From Herbiconiux sp. VKM Ac-1786 (lineage in GTDB: Bacteria > Actinomycetota > Actinomycetes > Actinomycetales > Microbacteriaceae): a stretch of DNA of 64,000 nt. Positions 12,996 through 58,111 of this stretch are shown here, piece by piece. The notes below the pieces were generated by a model. That model made no database searches and was not told the DNA's origin. It saw only the letters and a list, made by a program, of their open reading frames with translations. The stretch covers positions 2,094,513 to 2,158,512 of the forward strand of contig NZ_JADKSG010000001.1 of assembly GCF_015350805.1 (NCBI RefSeq). Direction: 5' to 3'. Positions within the stretch are counted from its first letter, which is position 1; every line of letters starts with the position of its first letter. A program made the translations under genes and the position numbers.

Positions 12996-13511
12996 ATGCT
13001 GCAGAACAAGAACACGTCGATCGACGCCGAGAAGGGGCTCGACCGCCGCACCGTCATGAAGGGCGCCGCCTGGTCGGTTCCCGTCATCGCCCTGGCCGTC
13101 GCCACCCCGGCGCACGCCGCCTCGATCGTCGACGTCGGCGCCTTCGCGCTCCGCGGCACCTGCGGCACCCTCGGCCTCCTCGGTCCCGGCTTCACGCTGC
13201 AGGCCGGCCCGACCACCCCGCTGCCCGTCGGCACCACCGTCACCATCACCGGCTCGGGCGTCGCCAACATCGGTGTGTTCTCGGTCACGGGTGGCACCGC
13301 CACGGTGAACGTGCTCTCGGGCACCAGCCGCCAGATCACCCTGACCGCCGCCCTCCCGGCCGGCGCGACCATCGCGTTCAGCACCACGCTGTCGATCTCG
13401 GTCGCCTTCCAGCTGAACGCGGTCGCGACGCTCCCCACCGGCTACTCGGGCACCGGCGCGAAGACCGCGGGCAATGTCAGCAGCACGCTGATCCTCTGCT
13501 CGGCCAACTGA
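12996..13511 (+). CDS. Secreted protein with Tat-like leader and two cysteines
   Basis: 171 residues. The leader has twin arginines (DRRTVMKGA), then AWSVPVIALAVATPAHA, with a likely signal-peptidase site after AHA (about residue 41). The mature part is Gly/Thr/Val-rich with beta repeats (GTTVTITGSGVANIGVFSV) and looks like a small beta-sandwich. It has exactly two cysteines, one near the mature N-terminus (RGTCGTLG) and one four residues from the end. GAGGGG lies a few bases before the ATG. The leader core nearly matches those of the genes at 26590 and 29399. The next gene encodes a thioredoxin-fold membrane protein. Confidence 0.8.
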   Translation: MLQNKNTSIDAEKGLDRRTVMKGAAWSVPVIALAVATPAHAASIVDVGAFALRGTCGTLGLLGPGFTLQAGPTTPLPVGTTVTITGSGVANIGVFSVTGGTATVNVLSGTSRQITLTAALPAGATIAFSTTLSISVAFQLNAVATLPTGYSGTGAKTAGNVSSTLILCSAN

Positions 13512-13524
13512 CCCACCCCGTCCG

Positions 13525-13562
13525 GCGCTCGGCGGCGGCCCACTCGGGTCGCCGCCGGGCGC
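13525..13562 (+). terminator. Hairpin after the secreted-protein gene
   Basis: GCGCTCGGCGGCG and CGCCGCCGGGCGC form a 13-bp stem with one G-U pair and a 12-base loop, starting 13 bp after the stop at 13511. No T tract; it could be a terminator or an RNA-stabilising stem ahead of the gene at 13612. Confidence 0.45.
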
Positions 13563-13611
13563 TCCGCCGTCTCTGCGGGTGCCGTCGCCCGCTCCGGAGG
13601 AAGTCCCGTCG

Positions 13612-14601
13612 ATGACCGCTGCCGCCGCCGCCCTCGCCCTGACCCTCGCCGCCGTGCTGCTCGTGAGCGGCACCCTCAAGCTGCTGCCGCGCGGCCGCCT
13701 GACCACGGATGACCTGGCCGAGCTCCTGGTCCCGGCTCCGCTCCGGCGCCCCTGGTTCACCGCGGCCCTCCCCGCCGCCGAGCTGCTGCTCGGCCTCGCC
13801 ATGCTCGTGGCCCCGGCCCCGCTGTTCACCGTGGCCGCCATCGCCACCGTGCTGCTCACCCTCGCGTTCACGGTCGTGGTGGTGCGCGTGCTGCTCCGAG
13901 ACGACCGGGTCGACTGCGCCTGCTTCGGGATGCTCCGCACTCCCCTCACGCTCGCCACCGCCGGGCGCAACATCGCCCTGGTGCTCGCGGCCGCCGTGGT
14001 CTCCGTCACCACCCACCAGGGGGCGGTGCTCACCCTGCCCGCCCTCGCGCCGGACGGCTGGACCGCCTTCTTCGCCACCACCACCGCCGTGCTCGCCCTG
14101 ACGGCCCTTCTGCTCGCAGCCGCGCGCCGCGCACCGGCCGCCGAGCCGACGCCCCCGGCGACCGGCCGCGACGGCACCGCCTGGCTCGTGCCCGACGTCG
14201 AGGTGCTGGCCGACGGGGAGCTGGTGCCCCTCGTCGAGCTGGCCCGCGCGAAGCCGCTCCTCCTGGTGCTGCTGTCGGCCGACTGCCACGCCTGCGAGCG
14301 GGTCGCGCCGCAGCTCGCGGGCTGGCGGGAGCGGTTCGGCGGGGCGGTCGAGGTGGCCGCGCTCACCTCGGACGACGCGGCGAGGCTGGCGGCCGCGCAT
14401 CCGCTGCTCGACGCCCCCGTGCACCGGGGGGCCCGGGCCGTGATGACGGCGGCCGGCATCCCGGGGTACCCGTCGGCCCTGCTGCTCGGCACCGACGGCA
14501 CCGTGGCCGGCGGCCCCGCGGTCGGTTCGGTCGAGGTGGAGGCCCTCGCGACGACGATCTCCGACGTGCTGGCCGCCGCCTCACCCGTGGCATCTCGGTA
14601 G
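13612..14601 (+). CDS. MauE/DoxX-like membrane protein fused to a thioredoxin-like domain
   Basis: 329 residues. The first ~190 have four to five transmembrane segments with the MauE-type motif DCACFGML after the second hydrophobic block, as in methylamine-utilisation MauE and DoxX-like redox membrane proteins. The C-terminal ~130 residues form a thioredoxin-like domain with CxxC (SADCHACERVAPQL) and the cis-proline segment IPGYPSALLLG. GGAGGAA precedes the ATG by ten bases. It probably moves electrons across the membrane to or from extracellular disulfides. The upstream secreted protein with two cysteines is an obvious candidate client, by inference. Confidence 0.8.
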   Translation: MTAAAAALALTLAAVLLVSGTLKLLPRGRLTTDDLAELLVPAPLRRPWFTAALPAAELLLGLAMLVAPAPLFTVAAIATVLLTLAFTVVVVRVLLRDDRVDCACFGMLRTPLTLATAGRNIALVLAAAVVSVTTHQGAVLTLPALAPDGWTAFFATTTAVLALTALLLAAARRAPAAEPTPPATGRDGTAWLVPDVEVLADGELVPLVELARAKPLLLVLLSADCHACERVAPQLAGWRERFGGAVEVAALTSDDAARLAAAHPLLDAPVHRGARAVMTAAGIPGYPSALLLGTDGTVAGGPAVGSVEVEALATTISDVLAAASPVASR

Positions 14602-14687
14602 TGATTGCTGATGCGTCCGGGGCCGGTGGGCGTTTGAATGGTGAAGTGGCTTAGCGATCAACGAGTGTCGACGCAATGGGGGTAGAC

Positions 14688-15593
14688 ATGGCTCAGAACG
14701 CGCAGAACGCGCCGAACCCGTCGACGTCGTCGAGCGCTTCGACGATGGAGTCGCTGCGTCGGCAGCGCGCCGTGGGGGAGCGGGGCGCCCGCTTCGGCCA
14801 GACCGAGCTCTCCATCCTGCGGGTGCCTTCCGGCGGCACCCCGGTGCGCAAGATCTGCCGCCCCGACGAGATGGCGGTCGAGGTGATCGTGCCCCTCGGC
14901 GGCGCGATCATGGTGCGCCCCGAGAGTCGCGACGAGCGCGCGGTGCGCGCCGGTGAAGCGCTCTATCTGATCGGCTGCCGCCGCTACGCCGCCTACGCCC
15001 TCCGCGGTGCGAGCGCCGTCACCCTCGGGCTGCCCTTCTCGGCGGTCGACGAGTACATCGACCGGTCGAGCACCTCACCCGTGCTGGTGCAGAACTCGGC
15101 CGTGCTGACGCCCGCCACGTCGTTCCTCGGCACGCTGCTCGAGGGCGGCGACGAGCTCGACCGGCTGTCCAGCTACTTCGCCGAGAAGCTGATCTGGGAG
15201 ATGGTCGCCTCGGTCTACCTCGAGGGCAAGGGCGTCGGTGCCGCCGAGGCGCCGAACACGGGTATCCTCGACCGGGCGATGGCGCAGATCGCCGCCTACC
15301 GCACCGACCGCTCGCTCACGCCAGAGGCGGTCGCCCGCTCGCTGAACGTATCGATGCGCCAGCTGCAGCGCGTGTTCGCCTCGACGGGGTCGACGCCGTC
15401 GCGGGAGATCCGCCGGCAGCGGGCCGAGCTCGCGGTCTCGATGCTGCGCAGCGAGTCGTTCGGGGTGCTGAACGTCACGCAGATCGCGCACCACAGCGGC
15501 TTCAGCGACGCCGCCGAGTTGCGACGGGCGCTGGTGGCCTTCGGCTACCCCTCGCCGCGAGAACTCAGAGCGGGTGTTCCGACGCCTCGATGA
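14688..15593 (+). CDS. AraC-family transcriptional regulator
   Basis: 301 residues. The N-terminal ~190 form a ligand or dimerisation domain with a cupin-like core (DEMAVEVIVPLGGAIMVRPE). The C-terminal ~100 are a two-HTH AraC domain: LTPEAVARSLNVSMRQLQRV, then RAELAVSMLRSESF and VTQIAHHSGFSDAAELRRAL. This layout matches AraC regulators with an AraC-binding-like N-terminus. An ATG four codons upstream (14676) is less likely because GGGGG is placed for 14688. The 3' end overlaps the convergent PqqD-like gene by 29 bases. Confidence 0.85.
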   Translation: MAQNAQNAPNPSTSSSASTMESLRRQRAVGERGARFGQTELSILRVPSGGTPVRKICRPDEMAVEVIVPLGGAIMVRPESRDERAVRAGEALYLIGCRRYAAYALRGASAVTLGLPFSAVDEYIDRSSTSPVLVQNSAVLTPATSFLGTLLEGGDELDRLSSYFAEKLIWEMVASVYLEGKGVGAAEAPNTGILDRAMAQIAAYRTDRSLTPEAVARSLNVSMRQLQRVFASTGSTPSREIRRQRAELAVSMLRSESFGVLNVTQIAHHSGFSDAAELRRALVAFGYPSPRELRAGVPTPR

Positions 15594-15891
15594 GGTGCCG
15601 CTCGACCAGTTCCGCGAGGAACGAGGTCACGTCGGCCTGCACCGCGTCCGGCTCGATGCCGAAGCGCTCGGCCACCGCGGCCACGACGCCCTCGGCGCCG
15701 TCGTCACCGTGCTCATGCACCGCCGTCCAGATCGCGGCGGCGGAGCCCTCGAGCACGAACGGCACCGCGCCGACCTCCGCCAGGTCGAGCACCGCGATAC
15801 GCCCGGCAGCAGCGGCGCCGGCAGCTCCGCCCGCGCCCTCGTCGTCCGAGCTGTGCCACGCGACGTCGGGCCCGATGCGGTAGGTCGTCAC
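15565..15891 (-). CDS. PqqD-like protein, stand-alone
   Basis: 108 residues. The C-terminal two thirds follow the PqqD fold: VPFVLEGSAAAIWTAVHEHG, then a helix, then VQADVTSFLAELVERHLIEA. PqqD proteins act as leader-peptide recognition elements that bring precursor peptides to radical-SAM or other modifying enzymes. No radical-SAM enzyme or obvious precursor is nearby. Its start overlaps the stop of the upstream gene at 15888 by four bases, so the two form an operon. A second PqqD domain lies in the kinase at 30942. Confidence 0.75.
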   Translation of the reverse strand: MTTYRIGPDVAWHSSDDEGAGGAAGAAAAGRIAVLDLAEVGAVPFVLEGSAAAIWTAVHEHGDDGAEGVVAAVAERFGIEPDAVQADVTSFLAELVERHLIEASEHPL

Positions 15892-16211
15892 TCCTCCACT
15901 CTATCGACGCCCGTCACGCCCTCCCGGGCGGCCGAGACGTCGATGAACTCCCGCAGGTCGGCGACGACCTCCTCGGGAGAGCGCCGGGTGGCCAGCGCGA
16001 GATGGCCGGCCAGCCACGACAGGCAGACGACGGATGCTCCCACCACGTCCCCCGCATCCGGAGCCGCACCGCCACCGATCAGCTCGGCGAGCGCCGTGGT
16101 CATGGCCCGTGTGTTCTCGTCGGTCGTGGCGTCGCCGCTCTGCGACACCACCGCGTCGAGCAGGAGCATCGCGGCGCGCGCACCGTCGGCCGGCATACCG
16201 TTCTCGTTCAT
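15888..16211 (-). CDS. Helical protein of unknown function, partner of PqqD-like gene
   Basis: 107 residues, predicted all-helical (AMTTALAELIGGG, VVGASVVCLSWLAGHLALA, SPEEVVADLREFIDV). No family recognised. A promoter-like TTGACA with an 18-base spacer lies upstream. The coupled overlap with the PqqD-like gene suggests a joint task, possibly a helper protein, but nothing in the sequence names it. Confidence 0.65.
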   Translation of the reverse strand: MNENGMPADGARAAMLLLDAVVSQSGDATTDENTRAMTTALAELIGGGAAPDAGDVVGASVVCLSWLAGHLALATRRSPEEVVADLREFIDVSAAREGVTGVDRVEE

Positions 16212-16238
16212 CCTGGACCCCCACAGTCTCGGTTGAGC

Positions 16239-16268
16239 GTATTAACCCGCCTGAAGGCAGGGTGTCAA
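16239..16268 (-). promoter_or_regulatory. Candidate sigma-70 promoter of the PqqD operon
   Basis: On the minus strand TTGACA (16268-16263), an 18-base spacer, then TAATAC (16244-16239). Transcription would start near 16232, about 20 bases before the ATG at 16211. Confidence 0.5.
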
Positions 16269-16395
16269 CCCTATCGATCTCAGTAGTGGCGAGCCCGGCG
16301 ATGACAACGATGACAGTGTAAGTTCCGTAGTGCGTCAGTAGTCCCTGGAGGAGACCCGACTTCCCCACTGCCTGGGCGCATCCTGATGGAGAACC

Positions 16396-16917
16396 ATGAC
16401 CCCGAGTTCCCCGAGCGATCCGAGCGATCGCTCTCCGCACGACCAGGCCGTCGCCGAGACCGCGTCCTGGGTCTCCGGCGTGGTCGCGCGCTCGCGCAGC
16501 GCCGCCCGCCCGGTGCCCGGCATCGTCGCGCCGCTCGAGTTCGTCGTCGACTTCGCCGCCAACAGCCAGGCCGACGCGGTCAGTGTGTCGATGGCGAACG
16601 GCACCGTCGGTGTCGCGCCCTGGGCCGCCGACGCGTCCGGCGTCGTGACGATCAGCGTGCGCTGGTCGAACGGCTTCGCCCTGGCGGGCCTGGAGGCCGG
16701 CAGCGAGATCGACGGCTGGACGGTGGCGGCCGTCGCCGCGGGCCGCGCCGACCTCGAGCATCCGTCGCTCGGCCGGGGCGAACCCGCCGTCGCCGTGCCC
16801 GCCCTCACGCTCGTGAAGGCCGGCGCCCCCGACGGGCTCGACGAGATCACGGCGCGGGTGTCGGGCACCTCCGACTACTGCCGCGACTTCACGATCCGCG
16901 GCTGGTCGCGCGCCTGA
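16396..16917 (+). CDS. Hypothetical protein
   Basis: 173 residues, apparently soluble and beta-rich (FVVDFAANSQADAVSVSMAN, GVVTISVRWSNGFALAGLE, then a C-terminal ITARVSGTSDYCRDFTIRGW). No signal peptide or transmembrane segment. GGAG lies a few bases before the ATG. No family recognised. It is divergent from the PqqD operon but has its own start region. Confidence 0.65.
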   Translation: MTPSSPSDPSDRSPHDQAVAETASWVSGVVARSRSAARPVPGIVAPLEFVVDFAANSQADAVSVSMANGTVGVAPWAADASGVVTISVRWSNGFALAGLEAGSEIDGWTVAAVAAGRADLEHPSLGRGEPAVAVPALTLVKAGAPDGLDEITARVSGTSDYCRDFTIRGWSRA

Positions 16918-16966
16918 CCTGCCCCTGGCAGCACGCGCCCGGCCAGCACAGCGCGGGCATGAAGAA

Positions 16967-17007
16967 GGCCCCTCACCGGATCGTTTGGGGTTCACCGGCG
17001 AGGGGCC
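16967..17007 (-). terminator. Strong rho-independent-type hairpin, minus strand
   Basis: GGCCCCTCGCCGG and CCGGTGAGGGGCC form a 13-bp stem with one G-U pair and a 15-base loop. On the minus strand it is followed by TTCTTC and begins one base after the stop of the short ORF at 17009. On the plus strand the tail (GCTACGC) is not U-rich. Confidence 0.65.
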
Positions 17008-17008
17008 G

Positions 17009-17071
17009 CTACGCACTCGCAGCGATTGGGTGACCGCTGTAGCGAGACGCCGTCGAATCCTCAGACGTCAT
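17009..17071 (-). CDS. Possible 20-residue peptide ORF
   Basis: MTSEDSTASRYSGHPIAASA, with GGAGGAG nine bases before the ATG and a strong terminator starting one base after the stop. It occupies the otherwise empty gap between 16917 and the recQ gene. The ribosome site and terminator argue for a short transcript, but the peptide could be incidental to a small RNA. No known leader-peptide signature was seen. Confidence 0.3.
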   Translation of the reverse strand: MTSEDSTASRYSGHPIAASA

Positions 17072-17218
17072 CGGGTCCGACTCCTCCACCATAGGCGTGT
17101 CGCGCGGTGCGCCAACCGTCTGTCGCTTATATCACCCGCAGTCTCACCCTTGGCTCACCCGCCCCCCTTCGGGGGACGCGCCGAGACCCCGCTGTGGTGG
17201 CCGGCGGCGGCGGAAAGC

Positions 17219-17224
17219 TAGGGT
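17219..17224 (+). promoter_or_regulatory. -10 hexamer TAGGGT of a leaderless start
   Basis: Six bases upstream of the GTG at 17231 (recQ-type gene). Confidence 0.45.
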
Positions 17225-17230
17225 GAGGGC

Positions 17231-18865
17231 GTGCAGAGCGAGCTGGTCGACCGCATCGAGGACGTCGCCCGCCGCGTCTTCGGCTGGCCGCAGCTGCGGC
17301 CCGGTCAGGCCGAGGCGATCGGAGCCGTCGCGGGCGGCGCCGACGTGCTCGCCGTCATGTCGACGGGCTACGGCAAGTCGGCGATCTACCAGATCGCGGG
17401 CCACCTGCTCGAGGGCCCCACGGTGGTCGTCTCGCCGCTGATCTCGCTGCAGCTCGATCAGGTGCGGCACATCGACGAGCGCACCGGCACGAACGACGCG
17501 GTCGCCGTCAACTCCTCCCAGTCGAAGCGCTCGAACGCCGCCGCCTGGAGCGCCGTCGCCTCGGGCGAGGCCGAGTTCATCTTCCTCGCGCCCGAGCAGC
17601 TCGCCCGTGACGAGGTGATCGACGAGCTCGGCACCCTGGGCGTCGGCCTCGTGGTGGTCGACGAGGCGCACTGCGTCTCGGCCTGGGGTCACGACTTCCG
17701 CCCCGACTACCTCCGCCTCGGCGGCATGATCGACCGCCTCGGCCGGCCCCCGGTGCTGGCCCTCACCGCGACGGGTTCCGCCCCCGTGCGCGAGGAGATC
17801 GTGCAGAGACTGCGGATGCACGACCCGGTGCTCTTCGTGCGTGGCTTCGACCGCCCGAACGTGCACCTCGCGGTCGAGCGCCACGAGAGCGAGCACGAGA
17901 AGGCGCGCGCCGTGCTCGCCGAGGTCGTGGCGGCGCCGAAGCCGGGCCTCGTCTACGTCGCCACCCGGGCGGACACCACGACGACGGCCGACGAGCTGGC
18001 GCAGGCGGGCATCCGCTCGGCCGCGTACCACGGCGGTCTCGGCGCCACCGGTCGTCGAGCGGTGCACGAGCTGTTCCAGGGCGACGGCGTCGACGCCGTG
18101 GTGGCCACCTCGGCGTTCGGCATGGGCATCGACAAGCCGAACGTGCGCTTCGTGGTGCACGCCGACATCACGGATTCGCTCGACTCCTACTACCAGGAGG
18201 TCGGTCGCAGCGGCCGCGACGGCGCCCAAGCGTGGGCCACCCTGCACTACCGCGAGGAGGACCTGGGACTCCGCCGCTTCTTCGCGGGCGGCCGGCCCGC
18301 ACCCTCCGACGTCGAGGCGATCATCCGCTCTCTGGCCGTCGACGACCCGCGGATGCTCGTCGCCGTCGCCGCCCGCAGCAGCCTCTCGCCCCGCGCCGCC
18401 GGCACCCTGGTGAACCTGCTCGTCGAGTCGGGCGTGGCCACCGAGGACGCCACGGGCATCGCCCTGGCCCGCCCGATCGACCCGTCGGACGCGGTGGCCG
18501 CGGTCGAGCGCCTCGCCGACCAGCGGCTGGACATCGAGGAGTCGCGGCTGGCGATGATCCGCTCGTACGCCGAGACGACCCGCTGCCGCCGTCAGCTGCT
18601 GCTGGCCTACTTCGGCGACACCCTCGCGGAGCCCTGCGGCAACTGCGACACCTGCGACAGCGGCAGCGCCTACCGCCCGCCCGTGCCGTCCTCGCCCGGC
18701 CTGCCCGTCTTCGAGAAGTCGCAGCGCGTGCGCCACACCCTCTGGGGCCCGGGCGAGATCGTCAGCGTCGAGCCCGACCGCGTCACGGCCTTCTTCGCGA
18801 CGAAGGGCTACCGCGTGCTCTCCCTCGCGGCGATCGCGGCCCACGCCCTCCTCGCCCCGGCCTAG
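17231..18865 (+). CDS. recQ: RecQ-family ATP-dependent DNA helicase
   Basis: 544 residues from a GTG. The superfamily-2 motifs are in order: Walker A STGYGKS (Lys49), DEAH box (Asp144-His147), LALTATGSA (motif III), and QEVGRSGRDG (motif VI). The C-terminal zinc-binding region has the cysteine set CRRQLLLAYFG...CGNCDTC. The final ~80 residues (QRVRHTLWGPGEIVSVEPDR) resemble a small beta domain rather than HRDC. RecQ enzymes unwind DNA 3' to 5' in recombination and repair. The GTG lies six bases after TAGGGT. At 544 residues it is shorter than E. coli RecQ. Confidence 0.93.
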   Translation: MQSELVDRIEDVARRVFGWPQLRPGQAEAIGAVAGGADVLAVMSTGYGKSAIYQIAGHLLEGPTVVVSPLISLQLDQVRHIDERTGTNDAVAVNSSQSKRSNAAAWSAVASGEAEFIFLAPEQLARDEVIDELGTLGVGLVVVDEAHCVSAWGHDFRPDYLRLGGMIDRLGRPPVLALTATGSAPVREEIVQRLRMHDPVLFVRGFDRPNVHLAVERHESEHEKARAVLAEVVAAPKPGLVYVATRADTTTTADELAQAGIRSAAYHGGLGATGRRAVHELFQGDGVDAVVATSAFGMGIDKPNVRFVVHADITDSLDSYYQEVGRSGRDGAQAWATLHYREEDLGLRRFFAGGRPAPSDVEAIIRSLAVDDPRMLVAVAARSSLSPRAAGTLVNLLVESGVATEDATGIALARPIDPSDAVAAVERLADQRLDIEESRLAMIRSYAETTRCRRQLLLAYFGDTLAEPCGNCDTCDSGSAYRPPVPSSPGLPVFEKSQRVRHTLWGPGEIVSVEPDRVTAFFATKGYRVLSLAAIAAHALLAPA

Positions 18866-18881
18866 CAGTATCGCCCAGGGG

Positions 18882-18901
18882 CATCAGTCACGTGGCTGAT
18901 G
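18882..18901. repeat. 20-bp near-perfect palindrome with CACGTG core
   Basis: CATCAGTCACGTGGCTGATG, a symmetric palindrome apart from one T/C pair, in the gap between the stops at 18865 and 18940. It may be a binding site or a minimal transcript-end hairpin. Confidence 0.4.
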
Positions 18902-18939
18902 GGTGGCTCCGCTCCGATGGTGTTGTGAGGCCGACATCG

Positions 18940-19362
18940 TCACGAGAGCTCCTCCTGAACCTCCGCATCCCGCAGCCGGCGCAGCGCACGCTGATGCAGC
19001 TCGAGGTTGCCCGCGCCGAGCACGAGGAGAGCGACCGCGTAGGCCAACTGCCCCCAGTCCTGCCGCACGAGCGCGAAGATCGCGATCCCCACCATGCCCA
19101 CGGTGAGCACGCTGCCCACCACCTGCATCACCCGTGCCCGCCGCAACCGCTGCCGCAACGACGGCGTGACATCGGGCGGCCACGGCTCATCCCACGACCG
19201 CCGAACCAGCCACACCCACCCGACCGACAAGAGGATGCTCGCCCCCACCAGCACGACCGCCCCCACGATGCTCCACGGCGGCACCGCCAGCAGCAGCCCC
19301 CCGACCACCGCGACGACCCCGGCCCCACCCACCGCGTCCCACCCGGCCGCCCGCGGACTCAC
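18940..19362 (-). CDS. Membrane protein of unknown function
   Basis: 140 residues from a GTG whose GTGA overlaps the previous stop. About four hydrophobic segments: GVVAVVGGLLLAVP, IVGAVVLVGASILLSVGWVW, VVGSVLTVGMVGIAIFAL and LAYAVALLVLGAGN. It ends in a charged helix (LRRLRDAEVQEELS). No family recognised. It forms an operon with the gene at 19359. A much longer frame reading to 19533 is rejected because it runs through that neighbour. Confidence 0.65.
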   Translation of the reverse strand: MSPRAAGWDAVGGAGVVAVVGGLLLAVPPWSIVGAVVLVGASILLSVGWVWLVRRSWDEPWPPDVTPSLRQRLRRARVMQVVGSVLTVGMVGIAIFALVRQDWGQLAYAVALLVLGAGNLELHQRALRRLRDAEVQEELS

Positions 19363-19742
19363 GCCCCCACCCCGCCCGCCCGCGCCGTAGTGGGCCGAGC
19401 ATCCTCGAGCCGCAGTGCCCCCACGACCAGCAGTGCGAGCCCCCCGAATGCGAGCCCGTAGATGATGATCGTCACGGGCCAGCTCCCGCCGCTCACCGTG
19501 GCCACCCCACCGATCCCATCGGTCCAGGTGCACGACCGCCCGAGCGGGAACATCGTCAGCTCACCGGTCACCGTTCCCTGCGCGACGTCGTTCAACGGCA
19601 GCGGCGACCACGGCCCTTCGCTCGCACAGTTCGCCCCGGCCCCGCCGTCGTGCAGGTTCACGAACACCGCGCCCACCCACATGAGACACCCCACCGCCAG
19701 CGCTACGACCCCCACCGCGACAGCCGACCACGCGCGCCTCAT
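19359..19742 (-). CDS. Two-TM membrane protein with extracytoplasmic loop
   Basis: 127 residues. A transmembrane segment (VAVGVVALAVGCLMWVGAV), a ~55-residue outside loop with two cysteines (NCASEG, SCTWTDG) that could form a disulfide, and a second segment (IIIYGLAFGGLALLVVGAL). Start fixed by TAGGGT six bases upstream. Function unknown; cotranscribed with 18940. Confidence 0.65.
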   Translation of the reverse strand: MRRAWSAVAVGVVALAVGCLMWVGAVFVNLHDGGAGANCASEGPWSPLPLNDVAQGTVTGELTMFPLGRSCTWTDGIGGVATVSGGSWPVTIIIYGLAFGGLALLVVGALRLEDARPTTARAGGVGA

Positions 19743-19748
19743 GCCCGC

Positions 19749-19754
19749 ACCCTA
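19749..19754 (-). promoter_or_regulatory. -10 hexamer TAGGGT of a leaderless start
   Basis: Six bases upstream of the ATG at 19742, identical to the hexamer before the recQ-type gene. Confidence 0.45.
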
Positions 19755-19842
19755 CGCCCAAGTCGACACTCGTCGCCCATTCCCAGCGACCCCCGCTAGC
19801 CTCCCTGCACCGCCCCCGCCGTCGCAGTGAGAGGACAGACCC

Positions 19843-21916: not shown

Positions 21917-22050
21917 ACCCTGTCATGTCCTCACACCCCGTGATCGTTACAGACTGCCGCACTCCTCGGTGAGAGCCACCTACCCACCCCCGATTCAGCC
22001 CCCGACCATCGCCATGTGGCAAGATGACCCGGATCGACCGGGGAGACGAC

Positions 22051-23262: not shown

Positions 23263-23333
23263 CCCCGGCGCGGTTCTTCTCGTAGGACCGACCTCGTCGC
23301 CAGCGCTCACTCGACGACCCAGCCACACCGTCT

Positions 23334-23424
23334 TCGGCAAGCGCGTAGCGCGCGGCAGCCATGTCGGGTGCAGGCCGTGTCTCGGCTGCGACCAGGATGC
23401 TGCCGCGCGCTCCGCGCTTGCCGA
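23334..23424. repeat. Long imperfect inverted repeat
   Basis: Arms of 26 bases (23334-23359 and 23399-23424) differ at one position, with a 39-base loop. It lies 72 bp after the LCP gene stop. It is GC-rich and lacks a T tract. It may be a terminator or a palindromic intergenic element; no second copy was noticed in the window. Confidence 0.65.
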
Positions 23425-23477
23425 CGGATGACCATGGTCGGCTAGTCGAGAAAGCCAGATCAAGCAATGAATTCGAT

Positions 23478-23506
23478 TGATTTCGCACCCTACGGGGACT
23501 AGAATT
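23478..23506 (+). promoter_or_regulatory. Sigma-70 promoter of the HNH gene
   Basis: TTGATT (23478-23483), a 17-base spacer, then TAGAAT (23501-23506), ending 11 bases before the ATG at 23518. One of the best promoter matches in the window. Confidence 0.65.
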
Positions 23507-23517
23507 GAGCCACGCTC

Positions 23518-24828
23518 ATGAACGCATCAGTCATCTTCGAACCGGTCTCCACCGACGCCACCCCGTCGGTCGTCGAGACGCGCGAATCGTTGCTCCGCGG
23601 CATCGGTGCCGACGCCGACGCGGTGGCCGTCATCCAGCGCGAGCAGGCCGTTCTCGACGCCCGGGCAGTGCTGCATCTGGCCGCTGCGGCTCGCAAGTCG
23701 ACCTGGTTGGCGAAGCTTCCCGATGGCTCCCTCGAGCACGCGCGCCGATCCCTGGTCGCCGAGGTCGCGACGACGCTGGGCCTGCCCGAGTCGACAGCCG
23801 CGCAGCGCATCGACGATGCCGAGATGCTCTGCGAATCCTTGCCGGTCACCCTCGACGCGCTGACCCGTGGCGACCTGACGTACCGCCACGCACAAGCCGT
23901 CGTGCGCCAGGCGCGATCGCTTCCCGAGAGCGCCCGGGGCGAGTTCGAGGTCGTCGCCCTGGCGAACGTGCACCGCCAGACCCCGACGCAGCTGTCGACC
24001 CACGCTCGAGTGGTTCGCGAGCGGATGCACCCTGAATCGATCGACGTGCGCCACCGTGAAGCCCGCGAAGAGCGTGCCGTGTGGCTCGAGAAAGAACGCG
24101 ACGGCATGGCGACCCTGGTGTGCCACCTCCCCGCCGTCGCGGCGACGGCCATCGACGACACCCTCGACCAGCTCGGCCGGGCCTTGCGCGCTCCCGATGA
24201 GACGCGCACCCACGCCCAGCTCCGAGCCGACTCGCTCGTCGAACTCCTCCTCCACCGCGACGGCGACAGTGACGTCGTCACTCGAGCGCGCGGGATCACG
24301 GCCAACATCGCCGTCACCGTGCCGGTGCTGACCCTCCTGGGCCGCTCCGCCGAGCCGGCTGAGCTCCACGGCTACGGCCCCATCGATCTCGACACCGCCC
24401 GCGAGCTCACCGCGGCGGCCCCGTCGCTCCTGCGCATCCTCATCGACCCGATCACGAGCCAGCGTCTCTCGGTGGGCCGCGACCGCTACAAGGTGCCGGC
24501 CGATCTCCGCGCCGCCGTCATCCTCGACGACGAGACCTGCCGCTTCCCCGGCTGCACGCGCAACGCCGACCGCTGCGATCTCGACCACGTCCTCGACTGG
24601 GCCAAGGGCGGCGACTCCAGCCTCGCCAACTTGGCGGCCCTCTGCCGCCGCCACCACACCCTGAAGCACCAGACCGACTGGACCGTCACTGCAGCCCCGA
24701 ACCGCGCCCTCCACTGGACGTCCCCCTCGGGGGCCCGCCACATCACCGACCCACCACCTCACGGCCCCGCCCCGAGTCCGCCCGCGCGCCCTGCACTACA
24801 ACATCTCGCAGACGACCCGCCCTTCTAG
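23518..24828 (+). CDS. DUF222 / HNH endonuclease domain protein (13E12-type)
   Basis: 436 residues. The N-terminal ~330 are the DUF222 helical domain (LGLPESTAAQRIDDAEMLCE, LTYRHAQAVVRQARSLP). The C-terminus has an HNH nuclease fold: TCRFPGCTRNADRCDLDHVL, then NLAALCRRHHTLKH, with the zinc-site cysteines and the active-site DHV. These proteins are multi-copy in many actinobacteria; their biological role is not settled. No mobile-element ends are seen here. The promoter at 23478 implies a very short leader with no ribosome site. Confidence 0.92.
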   Translation: MNASVIFEPVSTDATPSVVETRESLLRGIGADADAVAVIQREQAVLDARAVLHLAAAARKSTWLAKLPDGSLEHARRSLVAEVATTLGLPESTAAQRIDDAEMLCESLPVTLDALTRGDLTYRHAQAVVRQARSLPESARGEFEVVALANVHRQTPTQLSTHARVVRERMHPESIDVRHREAREERAVWLEKERDGMATLVCHLPAVAATAIDDTLDQLGRALRAPDETRTHAQLRADSLVELLLHRDGDSDVVTRARGITANIAVTVPVLTLLGRSAEPAELHGYGPIDLDTARELTAAAPSLLRILIDPITSQRLSVGRDRYKVPADLRAAVILDDETCRFPGCTRNADRCDLDHVLDWAKGGDSSLANLAALCRRHHTLKHQTDWTVTAAPNRALHWTSPSGARHITDPPPHGPAPSPPARPALQHLADDPPF

Positions 24829-24881
24829 CCCGAAGTCGCGTCGGCGAATGTTCGTGCTGTAGTGATTCAGCGAGCCTGTTC

Positions 24882-25052
24882 TCAGCCCCCGTCGGGTGCC
24901 GGCCGCTCGAGCTCGGTGTGCAGGTGCTCGAGGGGGAACTCCGTCACCGCATCGACCCCGTCGAGGATGACCTGCCAGTGCTCGTCGGCGCCAGGCCCTA
25001 CGATCACGCCCTCCCGCCCGGTGGCACGAACTGTGAACCGTGTTCCCGGCAA
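24882..25052 (-). CDS. Small basic/acidic beta-type protein (short gene)
   Basis: A 56-residue frame from a TTG at 25052: PGTRFTVRATGREGVIVGPG, then ADEHWQVILDGVDAVTEFPL, then a C-terminal HLHTELERPAPDGG. Third positions are strongly C/G, as in real genes here, and the product looks like a small beta-barrel. The only good ribosome site (AAAAGGAG) is about 18 bases upstream of the TTG, just before an ATC codon in frame. Either a non-standard start is used or the start codon has been lost. Confidence 0.5.
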   Translation of the reverse strand: MPGTRFTVRATGREGVIVGPGADEHWQVILDGVDAVTEFPLEHLHTELERPAPDGG

Positions 25053-25434
25053 CTTGCGGTGCGGCGCGATGCTCCTTTTCCGAGGTCAGGTCCAGCCCAG
25101 GCGATCTCCGGTTACGGTACCTCGATCGGCTCCTGCCCGCCGCCCTTTGATCGCGCGCCCGCGCGATGCTATGCGGGTCGCCCAGTAATGCCTTAGACAC
25201 CATGGCGTGCTCTTTCACACCCTCACCGCAACCGTCCCCCGCCGCTATCGATCTCGGACCCCGCAGGCACCCTTGAAGTGTTGGTCGGCGACGGGGTGCA
25301 ACAGCGCGACACGAACCGCGGCCCAAGTACGTCATGGCCGAAGACTCGCCTCGAAAGGACTCGCCCAGGGCCCTTGATGGCTGGCTGAGCGGCCCGTGGT
25401 CGGACTGCCGTCCGGAGACTCGGACCTTTCCACT
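25053..25434. other. Non-coding stretch, nothing identified
   Basis: About 380 bases with no frame showing coding codon bias, no clear hairpin and no similarity to mobile-element ends. It ends at the promoter of the gene at 25447. It may hold decayed sequence. Confidence 0.5.
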
Positions 25435-25440
25435 TATCGT
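25435..25440 (+). promoter_or_regulatory. -10 hexamer TATCGT of a leaderless start
   Basis: Six bases upstream of the GTG at 25447; decides the start of that gene. Confidence 0.4.
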
Positions 25441-25446
25441 GGTCGG

Positions 25447-25686
25447 GTGGTCCCCACCGTTGTAGCGCTGATAGTTGGCCCCCTTGCCTGTGCGTCCGGC
25501 GTTCTCACCATTTGCTTTCGCCATCGGCTGACGGACTGGCAGAACTACATGTATCGAGAGTTCGGCTGGAATCCGCGCGGCAAACGGCAGGACCTCACGG
25601 TGACCGGAATGACTGTCATCGGCAGCGTTCACCTGTTGATCGGAGTGTCGTTGCTGATCAACGCTCTGATCCGGTTGTCGTCGTGA
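25447..25686 (+). CDS. Small membrane protein of unknown function
   Basis: 79 residues with two transmembrane segments (VVALIVGPLACASGVLTICF and MTVIGSVHLLIGVSLLINAL) joined by a ~30-residue charged loop (HRLTDWQNYMYREFGWNPRG). This layout is common among small unnamed actinobacterial membrane proteins. The GTG at 25447 follows TATCGT by six bases; the frame reaches back to 25396 without a start signal. Confidence 0.55.
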   Translation: MVPTVVALIVGPLACASGVLTICFRHRLTDWQNYMYREFGWNPRGKRQDLTVTGMTVIGSVHLLIGVSLLINALIRLSS

Positions 25687-26016
25687 CATGGTGCGCACTG
25701 CGGTTGCGAACTCGCAGGGCGAACGAATGCTGACCATCGGTATCCGCTTGGGCTAGTTCGTGCCGATACGAGTTTGCGGCGGTTTCATGGCGGGGTAGTG
25801 GCTTGGCGATAGGTCTCATTCAGGAACCCCAGCAGGCTTTGCCCTGTCGGCTTCGGCTAGAAGGACGTGCTGGAGGGCCCGAGTGAAGTCGCGCTAAGTG
25901 ATGGAAACAGGCCCGCTCGTCTTCACCGAGCTAAGCGGCCCAGAGAGACTCTCGGCCTGGGGGCTCGAAGTCTCGTGCCCTCAAGTGCAAGAGGTCTGCC
26001 GGCCAGCTCATCGAGG
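25687..26016. other. Non-coding stretch, nothing identified
   Basis: About 330 bases between the small membrane gene and the end of the gene at 26017. No frame has a plausible start and codon bias, and no strong hairpin was seen. Confidence 0.5.
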
Positions 26017-26514
26017 TCAACGCAGGATCTCCACCATCAGCACCCATGCGTTCACGATCGACACGATGAAGATCACGATGAACCCGGCCGCCACATGGAA
26101 CAACCCGTCCGGGTTGCCCGTCATGAGCAGCACGCCCCCGACGAGCACACCCGAGAGCTGACCGATCCCGAGCACGATCGTCGGAACTTTGAGAGCGAAC
26201 CGTGGCCCGTCGTGGCTCCGCAGCATCCGCACCGCAGCATCCACCTGGAACCCGAGCGCGGCCGCCGCGAACGCCACCAACTCGATGCCCAACATCTCGG
26301 CGCTCTGCGAGGGGATGAGCATGGCCATCGACGACACGAGAATGACCGCGATCGACGCGATCGTCGCACCAGCTCGCGCAGGCAGCGCCGACCCGGCGAT
26401 GATCTGCTTCACGTTCACCGACACGGCGACGATGATCAACCCCGCGAGCGCACCGGCGGCCCCCACAGTCGCCGCCGCGAAGTCGTGCCACCCCTCGAGA
26501 TCCACGCTCGTCAT
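26017..26514 (-). CDS. Membrane protein of unknown function
   Basis: 165 residues with four to five transmembrane segments: AAATVGAAGALAGLIIVAVS, ASIAVILVSSMAMLIP, IELVAFAAAALGFQ, VLGIGQLSGVLVGGVLL and IVIFIVSIVNAWVL. The N-terminal WHDFAAATVGAAGALAGLI pattern recurs in unnamed actinobacterial membrane proteins. ATG 26514 was preferred over the one at 26535 because TACGCT lies six bases upstream. Confidence 0.68.
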   Translation of the reverse strand: MTSVDLEGWHDFAAATVGAAGALAGLIIVAVSVNVKQIIAGSALPARAGATIASIAVILVSSMAMLIPSQSAEMLGIELVAFAAAALGFQVDAAVRMLRSHDGPRFALKVPTIVLGIGQLSGVLVGGVLLMTGNPDGLFHVAAGFIVIFIVSIVNAWVLMVEILR

Positions 26515-26520
26515 GGGGGA

Positions 26521-26526
26521 AGCGTA
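26521..26526 (-). promoter_or_regulatory. -10 hexamer TACGCT of a leaderless start
   Basis: Six bases upstream of the ATG at 26514. Confidence 0.4.
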
Positions 26527-26546
26527 GCGAACCATGAACGCGAGAA

Positions 26547-26576
26547 GCGGGCCGGTTTGATGTCGAACCGGCCCGC
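26547..26576 (-). terminator. Terminator after the secreted-protein gene at 26590
   Basis: GCGGGCCGGTT, an 8-base loop, and AACCGGCCCGC form a perfect 11-bp stem, 13 bases past the stop. TTCTCGC follows on the minus strand. Confidence 0.65.
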
Positions 26577-26589
26577 CGCAGCGAACGGA

Positions 26590-27045
26590 CTAGGCCGCGT
26601 TGACCGACACGTCGACGGTGTCGTCGTACTTGACGCCGTCGGGTCCGGTCCAGAACGCCTGAATGGCACCCAGGATGCCGGGCTGCGCGTTGGCTGCGAA
26701 GGTGACGCCGACTCGTGCAGCACCTTCTCCATCCGTGGTGGCGGTGTTCTCGTTCATGGTGAACGGGCCGGACACGTAGACGAACGACACGACCTGTCCG
26801 GCGACCGGGTTGCCCTCGGGGTCGGTCCTCACCCGTGCGCCGGGGCGGAAGTCGTCGACGAGCGTCTCGCCGGGGTTGCCGGTCGCCGAGATGCCGGCGA
26901 ACGTGTACTTCGGGATGGGCGTCTCGCTGGCCGCGGCGAGGGGCGTCGCGACGGCGACAGCGATGACGGGGACGGCCCAGGCCGACCCGGCCAGGACCTG
27001 ACGTCGGGAGATTCCGGGCGCGCTGATGTTCTTGCTCATTCGCAT
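26590..27045 (-). CDS. Secreted protein with Tat-like leader
   Basis: 151 residues. Leader: ISRRQVLAGSAWAVPVIAVA, then VATPLAAAS, likely cleaved after AAA or AAAS (near residue 38). The mature ~110 residues are beta-rich (GEGAARVGVTFAANAQPGIL, TDGEG) and look like an Ig-like or filamin-type domain with no cysteine. A second ATG two codons in (27039) is possible. Its leader core nearly matches those of 12996 and 29399. It lies 238 bp from tatC, which reads the same way; the gap argues for separate transcription. Confidence 0.78.
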   Translation of the reverse strand: MRMSKNISAPGISRRQVLAGSAWAVPVIAVAVATPLAAASETPIPKYTFAGISATGNPGETLVDDFRPGARVRTDPEGNPVAGQVVSFVYVSGPFTMNENTATTDGEGAARVGVTFAANAQPGILGAIQAFWTGPDGVKYDDTVDVSVNAA

Positions 27046-27283
27046 TCTGCTTTCGGATCGACCGCCCCTGATGGCGCACGGCGCGGCCTTGGGGTACTGG
27101 CCTCAGGTCACCGGCGCGGGCGGAAGTCACCAAGCTACGGCGGGCAGGATGCGATAGGTACCGCCTCGGCGGGTGGTGTTGCGAGTGGGGTGCACGCCCG
27201 CTTGGGGGGTTTATGGGCGGTGAGCAGAATCACCCCAATCCGATACCCTCGCCGCTACGAAATGCGGCGACTCGGGTGATGGT

Positions 27284-28132
27284 TCAGATGACGTCGAGAC
27301 CCAACTCTGCATCGATTGCGCGATTCTTCTTCGCCACGCGACGGTCGTGAAGATACGCGATGCCGGCTGCCCCGAAGTACAGCAGCACCATGGGAATCGC
27401 GAGCAGGAACATGGACATGACGTCGGCCGCCGGTGTGGCGATCGCGGTGAAGAGCGTGATCACAAGAATGGCGATTCGCCAGGACTTCAGGATGGCCTTG
27501 GCCGTCAGCACACCGGCGAAGTTCAGCAGCACCAGGAACACCGGCAGCACGAACGCGATGCCGATGGCGAGCACCAGCTTGAGTACGAAGTCGTAATAGG
27601 TGCGGGCCGAGATCAACGCGGTGGTGTCTTGAGGCGCGAATCCGGTGAGCAGCACGACCATGTGCGGCATCACGAACCAGCCCGCAGCACAGCCGGCGAG
27701 GAACAGCGGCACGGCGGAGAGCACGAAGCCGACTGCGTACTGCTTCTCGCGTCGCTTCATGCCGGGCACCGCGAACGCCCAGATCTGGTAAAGCCAGACA
27801 GGCGACGAGATGACGACGCCCACGGTGAAGGCGATCTGAATACGGAGATCGAACGCTGACGAGATGTCAGTGAAGTTCAGCGAGGCAGTGCGCCCCTGCG
27901 CATCGGAGAGCTCCTGGATCGGCACGGTGAGCGCCTGCAGCACGGCATCCGACAGGATCCAGCCGACGACCATGCCGACCACGATGCCGAGCGCCGCCAG
28001 GAAGAGCCGCTTGCGCAGTTCGATGAGGTGCGCGCCGAGCGACATGCGCCCGTCGGCGGGGCGCTTCGATCGAGGCTTCTTCGGCGCGCGCTCGTCGCCC
28101 GAGCGCGAGCTCCGCGCTCCGATGGCGACCAT
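27284..28132 (-). CDS. tatC: Twin-arginine translocase subunit TatC
   Basis: 282 residues, six transmembrane segments. Family markers: HLIELRKRLFLAALGIVVGM at the first cytoplasmic region and helix, FAVPGMKRREKQYAVGFVLS, and GIAFVLPVFLVLLNFAGVLT. TatC recognises the twin-arginine signal of folded substrates. It follows tatA by 2 bp, so they are one operon. A basic 30-residue N-terminal extension precedes the usual start. At least five likely Tat substrates are in this window (12996, 26590, 29399, 40551, 53136). Confidence 0.95.
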   Translation of the reverse strand: MVAIGARSSRSGDERAPKKPRSKRPADGRMSLGAHLIELRKRLFLAALGIVVGMVVGWILSDAVLQALTVPIQELSDAQGRTASLNFTDISSAFDLRIQIAFTVGVVISSPVWLYQIWAFAVPGMKRREKQYAVGFVLSAVPLFLAGCAAGWFVMPHMVVLLTGFAPQDTTALISARTYYDFVLKLVLAIGIAFVLPVFLVLLNFAGVLTAKAILKSWRIAILVITLFTAIATPAADVMSMFLLAIPMVLLYFGAAGIAYLHDRRVAKKNRAIDAELGLDVI

Positions 28133-28134
28133 CG

Positions 28135-28437
28135 TCAGTTTTTGCCGGAGTCGGGCTCGCTGCGCGCCGCGTCGGAGTGAACCGGCGTCACGCGCGGCGT
28201 CTCGAGCGGGGGAGCGACATCGGTCGTCGTGGCGGACGGTGCGCTGGGCGCGGGCGGCGTCGTGTCGACCGCGTCACCCGGCTTGTCGTCGTCGCGCAGT
28301 CCCTTGGTCTCCTGCTTGAAGATGCGCATCGACTGGGCCAGCCCCTTCGAGAGGGCGGGAAGCCGGGTCGCGCCGAACAGCAGCAGGATGACCACGAGTA
28401 CGACGATCAGATGCCAGCCGTTGAGATTTCCGAGCAT
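28135..28437 (-). CDS. tatA: Twin-arginine translocase subunit TatA
   Basis: 100 residues. One N-terminal transmembrane helix (WHLIVVLVVILLLFGATRLP) runs into the hinge and amphipathic helix (ALSKGLAQSMRIFKQETKGL) typical of TatA. A Pro/Thr/Ala/Asp-rich cytoplasmic tail follows. TatA forms the translocation channel with TatC. No tatB is adjacent, as is common in actinobacteria where tatB lies elsewhere. GGGGG precedes the ATG. Confidence 0.95.
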   Translation of the reverse strand: MLGNLNGWHLIVVLVVILLLFGATRLPALSKGLAQSMRIFKQETKGLRDDDKPGDAVDTTPPAPSAPSATTTDVAPPLETPRVTPVHSDAARSEPDSGKN

Positions 28438-28481
28438 GAGAGGAGCCCCCTAGTGGTTTTGGTCGAGTGTACCCGGCGCAG

Positions 28482-29216
28482 TCATGAGACTGCTCCGAGT
28501 CGGGTGAACGGAAAGACGATGCTGAAGACATGGCCCACGACGCCAGACCGGTCGACGAGCCGCACGCACGTAGCGGTCGTCGGAGCGCCACGGCACTGAG
28601 CGATCGAGTCACTCGACGCTGAGCGATGATCGCCGAGTACGAAGTACTGGTCATCGGGCACGGTGAACGGGGTGAAGCAGCGCAGCGATGCCGGAACCGT
28701 CGAGCAGTCGAGCACTCCGGCTTCGAACGGCAGATCGTCGAGGATGTAGGGCTCGTCGACTGCGGCGCCGTCGACCGTTATGCGCCCCTCGGCATCGCAG
28801 CACGACACCGTCTCACCCGGCCCGGCGATGACCCGTTTCACCAGCACGTGATCGTTGGTCGGTCCGATACCCACCAGGCCACCGACCCATTTCGCGGCGG
28901 CCTTCAAGGGGTTCGTCTCCGGCGGTGGTGCCGGTTCCCAAGCCGTCGAAGCATTGAACACGACGACGTCACCGTCGACGGGTCCACCCCCGAGGTAGGC
29001 GAGCCGATTGACCAGGATGCGATCCCCGACCTCGAGCGTCGACTCCATCGACCCCGACGGCACCGAGTACAGCCGCACCAAGAACGTCTGCACGAGGGCG
29101 AGAACGACGATCGCGGCCACCAGATTCACGAACGGATTCCGCGCCAGTCGACGGACGAGTGACGGCCCGCCGGAGGCGCCAGTAGGGGAGTCAGAGAGGG
29201 CGGTCACAGCGCTCAC
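28482..29216 (-). CDS. lepB: Signal peptidase I
   Basis: 244 residues from a GTG. One N-terminal transmembrane segment (LVAAIVVLALVQTFLVRLYS) is followed by the catalytic box VPSGSMESTL (nucleophile Ser56), the general-base box HVLVKRVIAGPGE, and the LGDHRSASSDS box. This is the standard S26A layout for cleaving Sec and Tat signal peptides outside the membrane. A pair of cysteines (SCCDAEG) and a second cysteine pair suggest disulfides. It lies 44 bp upstream of tatA in the same direction, probably one export operon. The long frame to 29339 has no start signal. Confidence 0.92.
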   Translation of the reverse strand: MSAVTALSDSPTGASGGPSLVRRLARNPFVNLVAAIVVLALVQTFLVRLYSVPSGSMESTLEVGDRILVNRLAYLGGGPVDGDVVVFNASTAWEPAPPPETNPLKAAAKWVGGLVGIGPTNDHVLVKRVIAGPGETVSCCDAEGRITVDGAAVDEPYILDDLPFEAGVLDCSTVPASLRCFTPFTVPDDQYFVLGDHRSASSDSIAQCRGAPTTATCVRLVDRSGVVGHVFSIVFPFTRLGAVS

Positions 29217-29398
29217 CTTAATAGAAGGAGTGGCTCGATCTCCTATCGGGTTTCTTGCGGTCGTCCGGAAGGGTGAATCGCAGGGTGAAAAACTCGTCGT
29301 CCAGCTGATCGAACTCGTCGCCCTCGTTACTTTCGACACGCGCGTGAGGGCCTTCCGGCCCCGAGCGATCCATCGAACTTCGACATTGGGGACCCTCT

Positions 29399-29962
29399 AT
29401 GACCTTCACTCCTTCCCACGACTCCGAGTCCACTTTCACGGGTGAGTCTGCAGGTGAGACTCGCGGGCTTACCCGCCGCCAGGTCACAACTGCGGCGGCC
29501 TGGGCCGCACCGGTGATCGCGCTCGCGGTCGCGACCCCGCTCGCCGCCGCCAGCGAGGTCTTCGACAGCCCGACCGCATTCGTGAGCGGTGCTCTCGCCG
29601 CAACCGGCACGAGCGCAACCCAGCGCACGGCCACCTACGAGGGCGGCGCGCTCAACTACAACAGCGCAGGTGTTCCCGGGCTGAACTCCGGCGACATCAC
29701 GATCACCGTCTACAACACCAAGACCGCCTCGTGGACTCTGACCACCGACGTGGTCACCGCCTATCAGGCGGCCGGCTGGGTCCTCGTGTCGGCGAGCCCG
29801 GAATCGACGGTGTTCATCCACGCGGCCATCAGCAACGGTGCCACCATCTCGATGCCGGCCATCAGCTGGTCCGCTCAGGTCGGCAGCTCCAAGCCGGTCC
29901 TCGGCATCATGGTTTCCTCTGACAACGACGATGTCTCCGGCCTGGGTGTGAGCCTGAACTGA
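29399..29962 (+). CDS. Secreted protein with Tat-like leader
   Basis: 187 residues. A hydrophilic N-region of about 24 residues precedes LTRRQVTTAAAWAAPVIALA, then VATPLAAASE, giving a cut near residue 50. The mature part is Thr/Ser/Ala-rich and beta-predicted, with no cysteine (ISNGATISMPAISWSAQVGS). GGGGA lies upstream of the ATG. It is divergent from lepB-tatA-tatC and is followed by a clear terminator. The leader core is shared with 12996 and 26590. Function unknown. Confidence 0.78.
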   Translation: MTFTPSHDSESTFTGESAGETRGLTRRQVTTAAAWAAPVIALAVATPLAAASEVFDSPTAFVSGALAATGTSATQRTATYEGGALNYNSAGVPGLNSGDITITVYNTKTASWTLTTDVVTAYQAAGWVLVSASPESTVFIHAAISNGATISMPAISWSAQVGSSKPVLGIMVSSDNDDVSGLGVSLN

Positions 29963-32054: not shown

Positions 32055-32060
32055 AGTGTC

Positions 32061-32066
32061 ACGATA
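32061..32066 (-). promoter_or_regulatory. -10 hexamer TATCGT of a leaderless start
   Basis: Six bases upstream of the ATG at 32054; divergent from the BY-kinase gene at 32222. Confidence 0.45.
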
Positions 32067-58074: not shown

Positions 58075-58111
58075 AGTTCACCCGTTCTTGATTCGCCCGA
58101 GTGTGCTCGGG

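Follow-up and report, generated by a model that had tools for sequence, protein, structure and literature searches.

Why do secreted proteins with different mature parts carry almost the same signal peptide? The question is raised by a 64,000 nt stretch of the genome of Herbiconiux sp. VKM Ac-1786 (contig NZ_JADKSG010000001.1, positions 2,094,513 to 2,158,512; GC content 67%), here called the window, in which three predicted proteins, A, B and C, begin with a twin-arginine translocation (Tat) leader of nearly constant core. The leaders read RRTVMKGAAWSVPVIALAVATPAHAAS for A (open reading frame (ORF) 12933 or 12996 to 13511, + strand, with the Tat leader at 13044-13124), RRQVLAGSAWAVPVIAVAVATPLAAAS for B (26590-27045, - strand) and RRQVTTAAAWAAPVIALAVATPLAAAS for C (29399-29962, + strand). 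A preliminary description of the window had suggested that the core serves something beyond translocation, and named a dedicated peptidase, membrane retention or recognition by a partner. The analysis presented here points to the last of these, the candidate partner being an HprK-like kinase linked to a recognition element (RRE) of the kind known from ribosomally synthesised and post-translationally modified peptides (RiPPs).

A subclass of Tat leader

All three leaders read as first described, and the claim that their codons differ also stands, with matching codons at 9/19 (A-B), 11/19 (A-C) and 12/21 (B-C) of the identical residues. The genes had been called unlinked, but B and C lie 2.35 kb apart and flank tatC-tatA-lepB, with A 13 kb away. 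The three are moreover part of a larger set, as their own genome has 11 such leaders. That the mature proteins differ holds for the most part, the exception being a relative of A in the same genome (L006), which resembles it in both leader and mature part.

A leader profile of 32 positions was built from the 11 leaders. When all candidates in the 3.9 Mb genome were scored (133/133), it matched 11 places at 48-68 bits, with the next match at 10.2 bits; a search with a single leader returned the same 11 places, eight of which are outside the window. Across the 11 the columns R, R, W, P, V, A, P, A, A and S are invariant, and the conserved Ser directly after the A-x-A site is also part of the core. 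By sequence they fit Tat signal peptides, with twin Arg, a hydrophobic stretch and an N-terminal A-x-A site. The generic Tat model TIGR01409 picked none of the 11 in this genome and matched seven other places, one of them above its cut-off. A Tat leader could be read at three of the seven (L209, L211 and L214; the other four held out-of-frame text or nothing readable), and W-x-x-P was present in none of the three, so the core is not shared by the other readable Tat leaders of the genome. The 11 places with their wide score gap, together with the lack of W-x-x-P in the three other readable Tat leaders, mark these leaders, as judged by sequence, as a discrete subclass. Among 100 genomes sampled from the family a leader match was found in 15, of which 12 were convincing, against TatC in 97; the class is therefore not a general Tat feature. 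A chance match or a generic Tat leader is ruled out by the score gap, by this rarity among genomes and by the three other readable Tat leaders being without W-x-x-P.

The proteins that carry the leader were characterised from 116 distinct leaders read in fetched loci, for which the search required both W and P at W+3 (counted from the Trp). Leaders known only as coordinates, the majority across the genome samples, are outside this set, and one profile match without W (L126) was excluded from it. The mature parts fell into 74 BLAST clusters, 53 of them singletons; others had 10, 7 and 5 members, with the mature part of A in the first of these. Mature length ranged from 83 to 510 residues with a median of 153, values that are lower bounds as some proteins are cut by locus ends. 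Pfam scans of ten mature parts gave Ice_binding in one, RCC1 in two, NHL in one and no family in six. The mature part of B is Big_1-like (PF02369, 6.1e-7, below the gathering score), and for that of C no family was found in Pfam or NCBIfam. The leader class rides on unrelated proteins, which bears out the proposal that the core defines a class on varied mature proteins and not the signature of one protein family. A transmembrane-like stretch was seen in 2/116 mature parts and LPxT-like letters within the last 60 residues in 4/116; membrane anchoring and sortase attachment were rejected on these counts, and the suggested membrane retention is left without support.

A few of these proteins and arrays may be mentioned individually. 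One leader is on an ice-binding-like protein (L036:1024-2583), to which L046 of the same genome is similar by eye. Runs of six to seven small leader-protein genes, with leaders of the type RRR-x-x-x-GAAW, lie near the kinase in genus g94 (L138:5953-13704, L139:5834-18219 and L140:4703-11646). Genome G073, with a single TatC, has 42 leader matches, many of them on its contig C28.

Co-occurrence of leader and kinase

The leader profile and a kinase profile (A3) were scored on the same three samples of genomes, and the counts are given as both / leader only / kinase only / neither. The family sample (100 genomes) gave 11/1/0/88 (Fisher 8e-14), or 11/4/0/85 on inclusion of three single leader matches of 18.6-19.8 bits; the order sample (198 genomes) gave 26/2/4/166 (Fisher 4e-26); and the class sample (394 genomes) gave 17/3/2/372 (Fisher 7e-25), or 17/3/6/368 on inclusion of four kinase matches of 60-74 bits. 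The sampled genomes are related, so the Fisher values overstate independence, and the counts are lower bounds as only some candidates were scored per genome (for example 80/145 for leaders, and 33, 17 or 8 of about 150 for the kinase). A rescoring of 150 or all candidates covered nine genomes, the six with leaders only and the three whose leader matches were weak. When the three samples are united there are 52 leader genomes and 51 strong-kinase genomes, with 46 common to both, 6 with the leader only and 5 with the kinase only. Within a single genus (g85) four genomes had both and seven neither (Fisher 0.003), figures which apply to the rows listed, as more g85 genomes may exist in the sample. 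Outside the order, in family f45, leaders adjoin the kinase, and in G635 they do so on both sides.

The association is also seen at the level of loci. The kinase was present in 11 of 20 regions chosen mainly at leaders, often with NTP_transf_5 and Wzc, and leaders were present in 24 of 37 kinase regions (7/20 in the batch picked from kinase genomes without earlier coverage); these 37 are a non-random set drawn from leader positions, kinase genomes not yet covered and linked cases. The kinase had no match in plasmid records. Across the samples the leader class co-occurs nearly perfectly with the RRE-linked HprK-like kinase, which makes recognition by a partner the best supported of the three options first named, with the binding itself inferred.

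RRE-like domains in the kinase regions

Among 28 homologues of the window kinase, 26 matched TIGR04352 (HprK_rel_A) at E<=0.01. The last 90 residues of the kinase are PqqD/RRE-like: PF05402 was detected in 10/28 homologues at E<=0.1, the best at 1e-11, and when a profile of this domain was run against 177,635 PDB sequences the top four were PbaB1, TbiB1, LppB and PqqD, PbaB1 being a binder of a WxxP leader. The kinase-type RRE domain was found in 37/37 kinase regions, of which 28 have it within the kinase frame and 9 in a different one, with a model built partly from those same 37 loci. A separate PqqD-type protein was present in 20/37 regions and an extra PqqD domain inside the kinase frame in two more, and an NTP transferase in 23/37. 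The profile of the discrete PqqD protein (A7) matched chains of TbiB1, LppB and PbaB1 at 8e-9 to 9e-8, and the PqqD-type domains retain the Phe that sandwiches the leader Pro in 13/14 cases. By sequence profile, both the RRE-like domain and the PqqD protein appear clearly related to RREs.

Two adjacent kinase-RRE paralogues were observed in L137:7807-11762, the second seemingly without a P-loop motif as judged by eye.

The leader motif and its spacing

In the 116 leaders [IV] is found at W+5 in 109 and P at W+12 in 113; every leader has a Ser between W+16 and W+18, with 108 of them having it at W+17, and beyond it conservation falls off. The distance from W to Ser stays at 17 where that from RR to W varies (10 in L163; 6 in L008, L010 and L011), which hints that RR and W..S could be separate modules. 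The core W-x-x-P-x-[IV] fits the motif [Y/W]xxPx[L/V/I/F/A] which, according to the available part of PMC13381572, is bound by the RREs of lasso and LPP systems. The same part of that paper reports that Tyr-16 and Pro-13 of the precursor LppA are needed for good binding and that LppK phosphorylates Ser3 of the core. If the leaders studied here were cleaved after A(W+15), a site placed from residue types, the corresponding positions would be W-16, P-13, [IV]-11 and Ser+2, compared with Tyr-16, Pro-13, Val-11 and Ser+3 in LppA. As we see it, the needs of a signal peptide account for A-x-A but not for the W, the first P or the Ser.

Three leaders, in L219:1828-2634, L219:3600-4598 and L163:1018-1944, have additional residues between RR and W, with W to Ser still at 17.

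Gene content of the locus

The features of the window that bear on these questions are as follows.

12996-13511, + strand: leader protein A, with relatives elsewhere that have the same leader
13579-14601, + strand: MauE domain with thioredoxin-like segment, adjoining A (PF07291, 6.9e-18)
14676-15593, + strand: AraC-type regulator near A (PF12833, 3.8e-12; cluster CL14, in 4 genomes)
15565-15891, - strand: discrete PqqD/RRE-like protein, candidate reader of the leader (PF05402, 4.5e-11; TIGR04353, 25.4 bits, cut-off 35)
26590-27045, - strand: leader protein B (leader profile), with a Big_1-like mature part (PF02369, 6.1e-7)
27284-28132, - strand: TatC, the second of the genome (PF00902, 3.2e-60; 80% identical to the TatC on contig C2)
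28135-28437, - strand: TatA (PF02416, 3.7e-16)
28482-29339, - strand: signal peptidase I, LepB (PF10502, 3e-31; TIGR02227, 104 bits)
29399-29962, + strand: leader protein C (leader profile)
30043-30963, - strand: NTP_transf_5 nucleotidyltransferase, overlapping the kinase gene (PF14907, 5.5e-9, above the gathering score)
30942-32072, - strand: HprK-like kinase with a C-terminal PqqD/RRE-like domain at about residues 288-376 (profile matches)
32090-33826, + strand: Wzc-type tyrosine autokinase (Pfam and NCBIfam)

The Wzc gene is followed by two low-molecular-weight phosphatases and a sugar transferase, up to 36737, and further on by a polysaccharide flippase and by pyruvyl, acyl and glycosyl transferases; by its predicted gene content the region to the right of C is an exopolysaccharide locus. 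The true start of lepB is probably downstream of the listed GTG, judging from the homologous frame in L129. The TatC on contig C2 is presumably the canonical one, from the translations that neighbour it.

Comparison with known systems

The closest likeness is to the LPP systems of Bacillota, for which the available part of PMC13381572 was used throughout. There an RRE, an HprK-like kinase, an NTP transferase and a leader peptidase of signal-peptidase type stand in a polysaccharide locus, and the window likewise holds the hallmark of HprK-like kinase, RRE and NTP transferase in such a locus. Both have a conserved N-terminal [Y/W]xxPx[V/I] leader with variable C-termini, and a Ser 17-18 residues past the aromatic residue (17 here, 18 in LPP precursors, where that Ser is phosphorylated). 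However, the motif here is embedded in a twin-arginine signal, whole proteins are carried (mature length 83-510, compared with 35-200 for LPP precursors), the kinase frame includes the RRE-like domain in 28/37 regions, and a genome can have up to 42 leaders. The LPP leader consensus YxxPxVLxHQxIxFETxxS was not found here, only [Y/W]xxPx[V/I] and a Ser at similar distance being shared. Nor is the peptidase of the SipW-like, archaeal type, the window enzyme scoring 104 bits with TIGR02227 against 16.9 bits with the archaeal TIGR02228. A Pfam scan of 40 window ORFs, which are a part of all window ORFs, gave no MsbA-like exporter. Given Tat, whole proteins and a different leader consensus and peptidase, the system is LPP-like in logic and not an LPP member.

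Lasso peptides of the paeninodin/pseudomycoidin type have an HprK kinase, a nucleotidyltransferase and a B1 RRE, and the WxxP leader of the paeninodin type is alike; in such a cassette the kinase phosphorylates and the nucleotidyltransferase glycosylates a Ser (available part of PMC8498205). In contrast, the carriers here are proteins, and a macrolactam synthetase or B2 peptidase had no Pfam match among the 40 ORFs. The best NCBIfam matches of the window kinase and the discrete PqqD are to the HPr-rel-A system (TIGR04352 kinase, TIGR04353 PqqD), but both score below the cut-offs (25.8 against 200 and 25.4 against 35 bits); among the matches listed, no paper on that system was found in the open-licence literature.

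Two further systems offer partial parallels. PEP-CTERM/EpsH sorting, which is linked to exopolysaccharide, also involves a short domain of homology, carried by many proteins, whose distribution among genomes follows that of an exopolysaccharide locus (available part of PMC1569441), although the signal here is N-terminal. Redox enzyme maturation proteins (REMPs) such as DmsD and TorD are cytoplasmic readers that owe their specificity to the hydrophobic, C-terminal parts of the Tat signal, and so are a precedent for reading the Tat hydrophobic region in the cytoplasm; most of them serve one specific pre-protein (available part of PMC3316669), whereas here one core recurs on many proteins, with an RRE as the proposed reader. 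No Tat leaders linked with RREs were found in the open-licence literature, among the matches listed. The parts are thus known (LPP, the paeninodin cassette, Tat), and an RRE motif within a Tat signal on whole proteins was not found described there, again among the matches listed.

Proposed mechanism and alternatives

The fit of the motif, the Ser at a fixed distance, the co-occurrence with the kinase and the analogy with LPP together suggest that the core is a composite signal, a Tat and signal-peptidase leader with an embedded RRE motif, and that the proteins are modified on the N-terminal Ser before export; on balance this is considered narrowly probable. The W-x-x-P core would be bound in the cytoplasm by an RRE, either the discrete PqqD protein or the domain of the kinase itself or both of them, which would present the precursor to the kinase; the kinase would phosphorylate the conserved Ser, and the nucleotidyltransferase might then add to this phosphate, perhaps a sugar. 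Export of the modified protein by Tat would follow, signal peptidase I would remove the leader, and the product may join, or become linked to, the exopolysaccharide layer. The use of Tat would be explained by the modification taking place in the cytoplasm, on a protein that is already folded. RRE binding of the core, Ser as acceptor, the nucleotidyltransferase step and the tie to exopolysaccharide are all extrapolated from sequence; the docking-like core and its near-constant companion kinase suggest that the secreted proteins may be chemically marked before leaving the cell. The wider proposal is that a single HprK/RRE machinery acts on dozens of unrelated folded proteins ahead of their export by Tat, phosphorylating and perhaps also glycosylating the N-terminal Ser, and in this way links them to an exopolysaccharide; it is a serious possibility that falls short of being probable.

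Several observations weigh against the proposed recognition and marking. The window kinase reaches only 25.8 bits with TIGR04352, whose cut-off is 200, and an AlphaFold2 single-sequence model of it had a pLDDT of 31.8. Its RRE-like domain mostly lacks the Pro-sandwiching Phe of LppB (present in 1/24) and has the Tyr-binding Asp of LppB in 0/24, and the PqqD-type proteins that do retain the Phe stand alone in only 20/37 regions (in the kinase frame in two more). The third matched position, Val-11 of LppA, is dispensable for binding (available part of PMC13381572). The spacing from W to Ser is partly fixed by signal-peptide length, and W, P and Ser are built into the profiles that gathered the leaders; among 12 leader matches of a later batch, which overlaps partly with the 116, one was without Ser at W+16..18 (L221:15148-16092) and one without Pro at W+3 (L222:7272-8186). 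Six genomes have one to four leaders and no kinase (G085, G110, G174, G201, G587 with one match of 25 bits, and G627), nothing above 30 bits being found when they were rescored for it, and five have the kinase and no leader.

The leader could instead label the whole exopolysaccharide locus, with the kinase and RRE acting on another, unseen precursor and the core kept for a different partner such as the Tat receptor or a chaperone. Genes for Wzc, phosphatases and a sugar transferase stand in the locus that kinase and leader share, so that co-occurrence alone cannot single out the reader of the leader, and the RRE-like domain of the kinase has lost pocket residues. However, the leaders are scattered, with 8/11 outside the window, and still few occur in genomes that have no kinase; the fit of the core to the RRE motif and the nearly fixed W-to-Ser spacing also speak against this explanation, which is regarded as unlikely, though it deserves weight.

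The leaders could also be alike by descent only, as one duplicated family with fast-diverging mature parts and a core that has no function beyond Tat export. Some mature parts are indeed related, as in the clusters of 10, 7 and 5, and tandem arrays are present in genus g94. Against this, the 116 mature parts fall into 74 clusters with 53 singletons and include Ice_binding, RCC1 and NHL domains, W, P and Ser are kept across families though codons differ, and the co-occurrence with the kinase is left unexplained, which makes common descent alone improbable.

Least probable is a dedicated export line, made up of the second TatAC and LepB, with selectivity for the core: tatC-tatA-lepB lies between B and C in the window and between leaders in G011, and in G093 a leader gene is just downstream of tatC with lepB nearby, but the leader-rich genomes G073 (42 leaders) and G045 (20 leaders) have one TatC each, compared with two in the genome of the window, and lepB is in only 7/37 fetched kinase regions, so this fails as a rule for the class. 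A second Tat and a dedicated LepB were rejected as general partners on the same evidence. The dedicated peptidase proposed in the preliminary description may thus apply to a subset at most, and the co-occurring tat genes it looked for were seen, as extra tat genes beside leaders, only in the genus of the window (three genomes), in which a specialised Tat line is possible. The arrangement at 27284-29339 recurs in G011 (L129, flanked by leaders on either side) and, in part, in G093 (L130).

If the proposed marking by an RRE-guided kinase is correct, it would mirror PEP-CTERM sorting at the N-terminus and extend RiPP-type leader recognition to a whole set of secreted proteins. RRE-guided modification would then mark entire exported proteins, beyond small peptide products, with Tat allowing folded cargo to be modified. 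The core would also allow searches for secreted proteins of a class that has no name in the family models tried, and the HprK/NTP_transf_5/PqqD cassette of polysaccharide loci would gain a candidate role, with a direct test of the tie between protein and exopolysaccharide. LPP and paeninodins are stated to be restricted to Bacillota in the available part of Popov et al. 2026 (PMC13381572); the genomes here look actinobacterial, and the logic would therefore reach another phylum.

Other features of the window

Three long ORFs of the exopolysaccharide locus (39232-40446, 51598-53049 and 58078-59619) were without a Pfam family in the scans made. The MauE family of 13579-14601 was found in 12/37 kinase regions. 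Protein A, the MauE-thioredoxin protein and the AraC regulator (12996-15593) recur together in L130 and L136, and the three may possibly be a sub-module.

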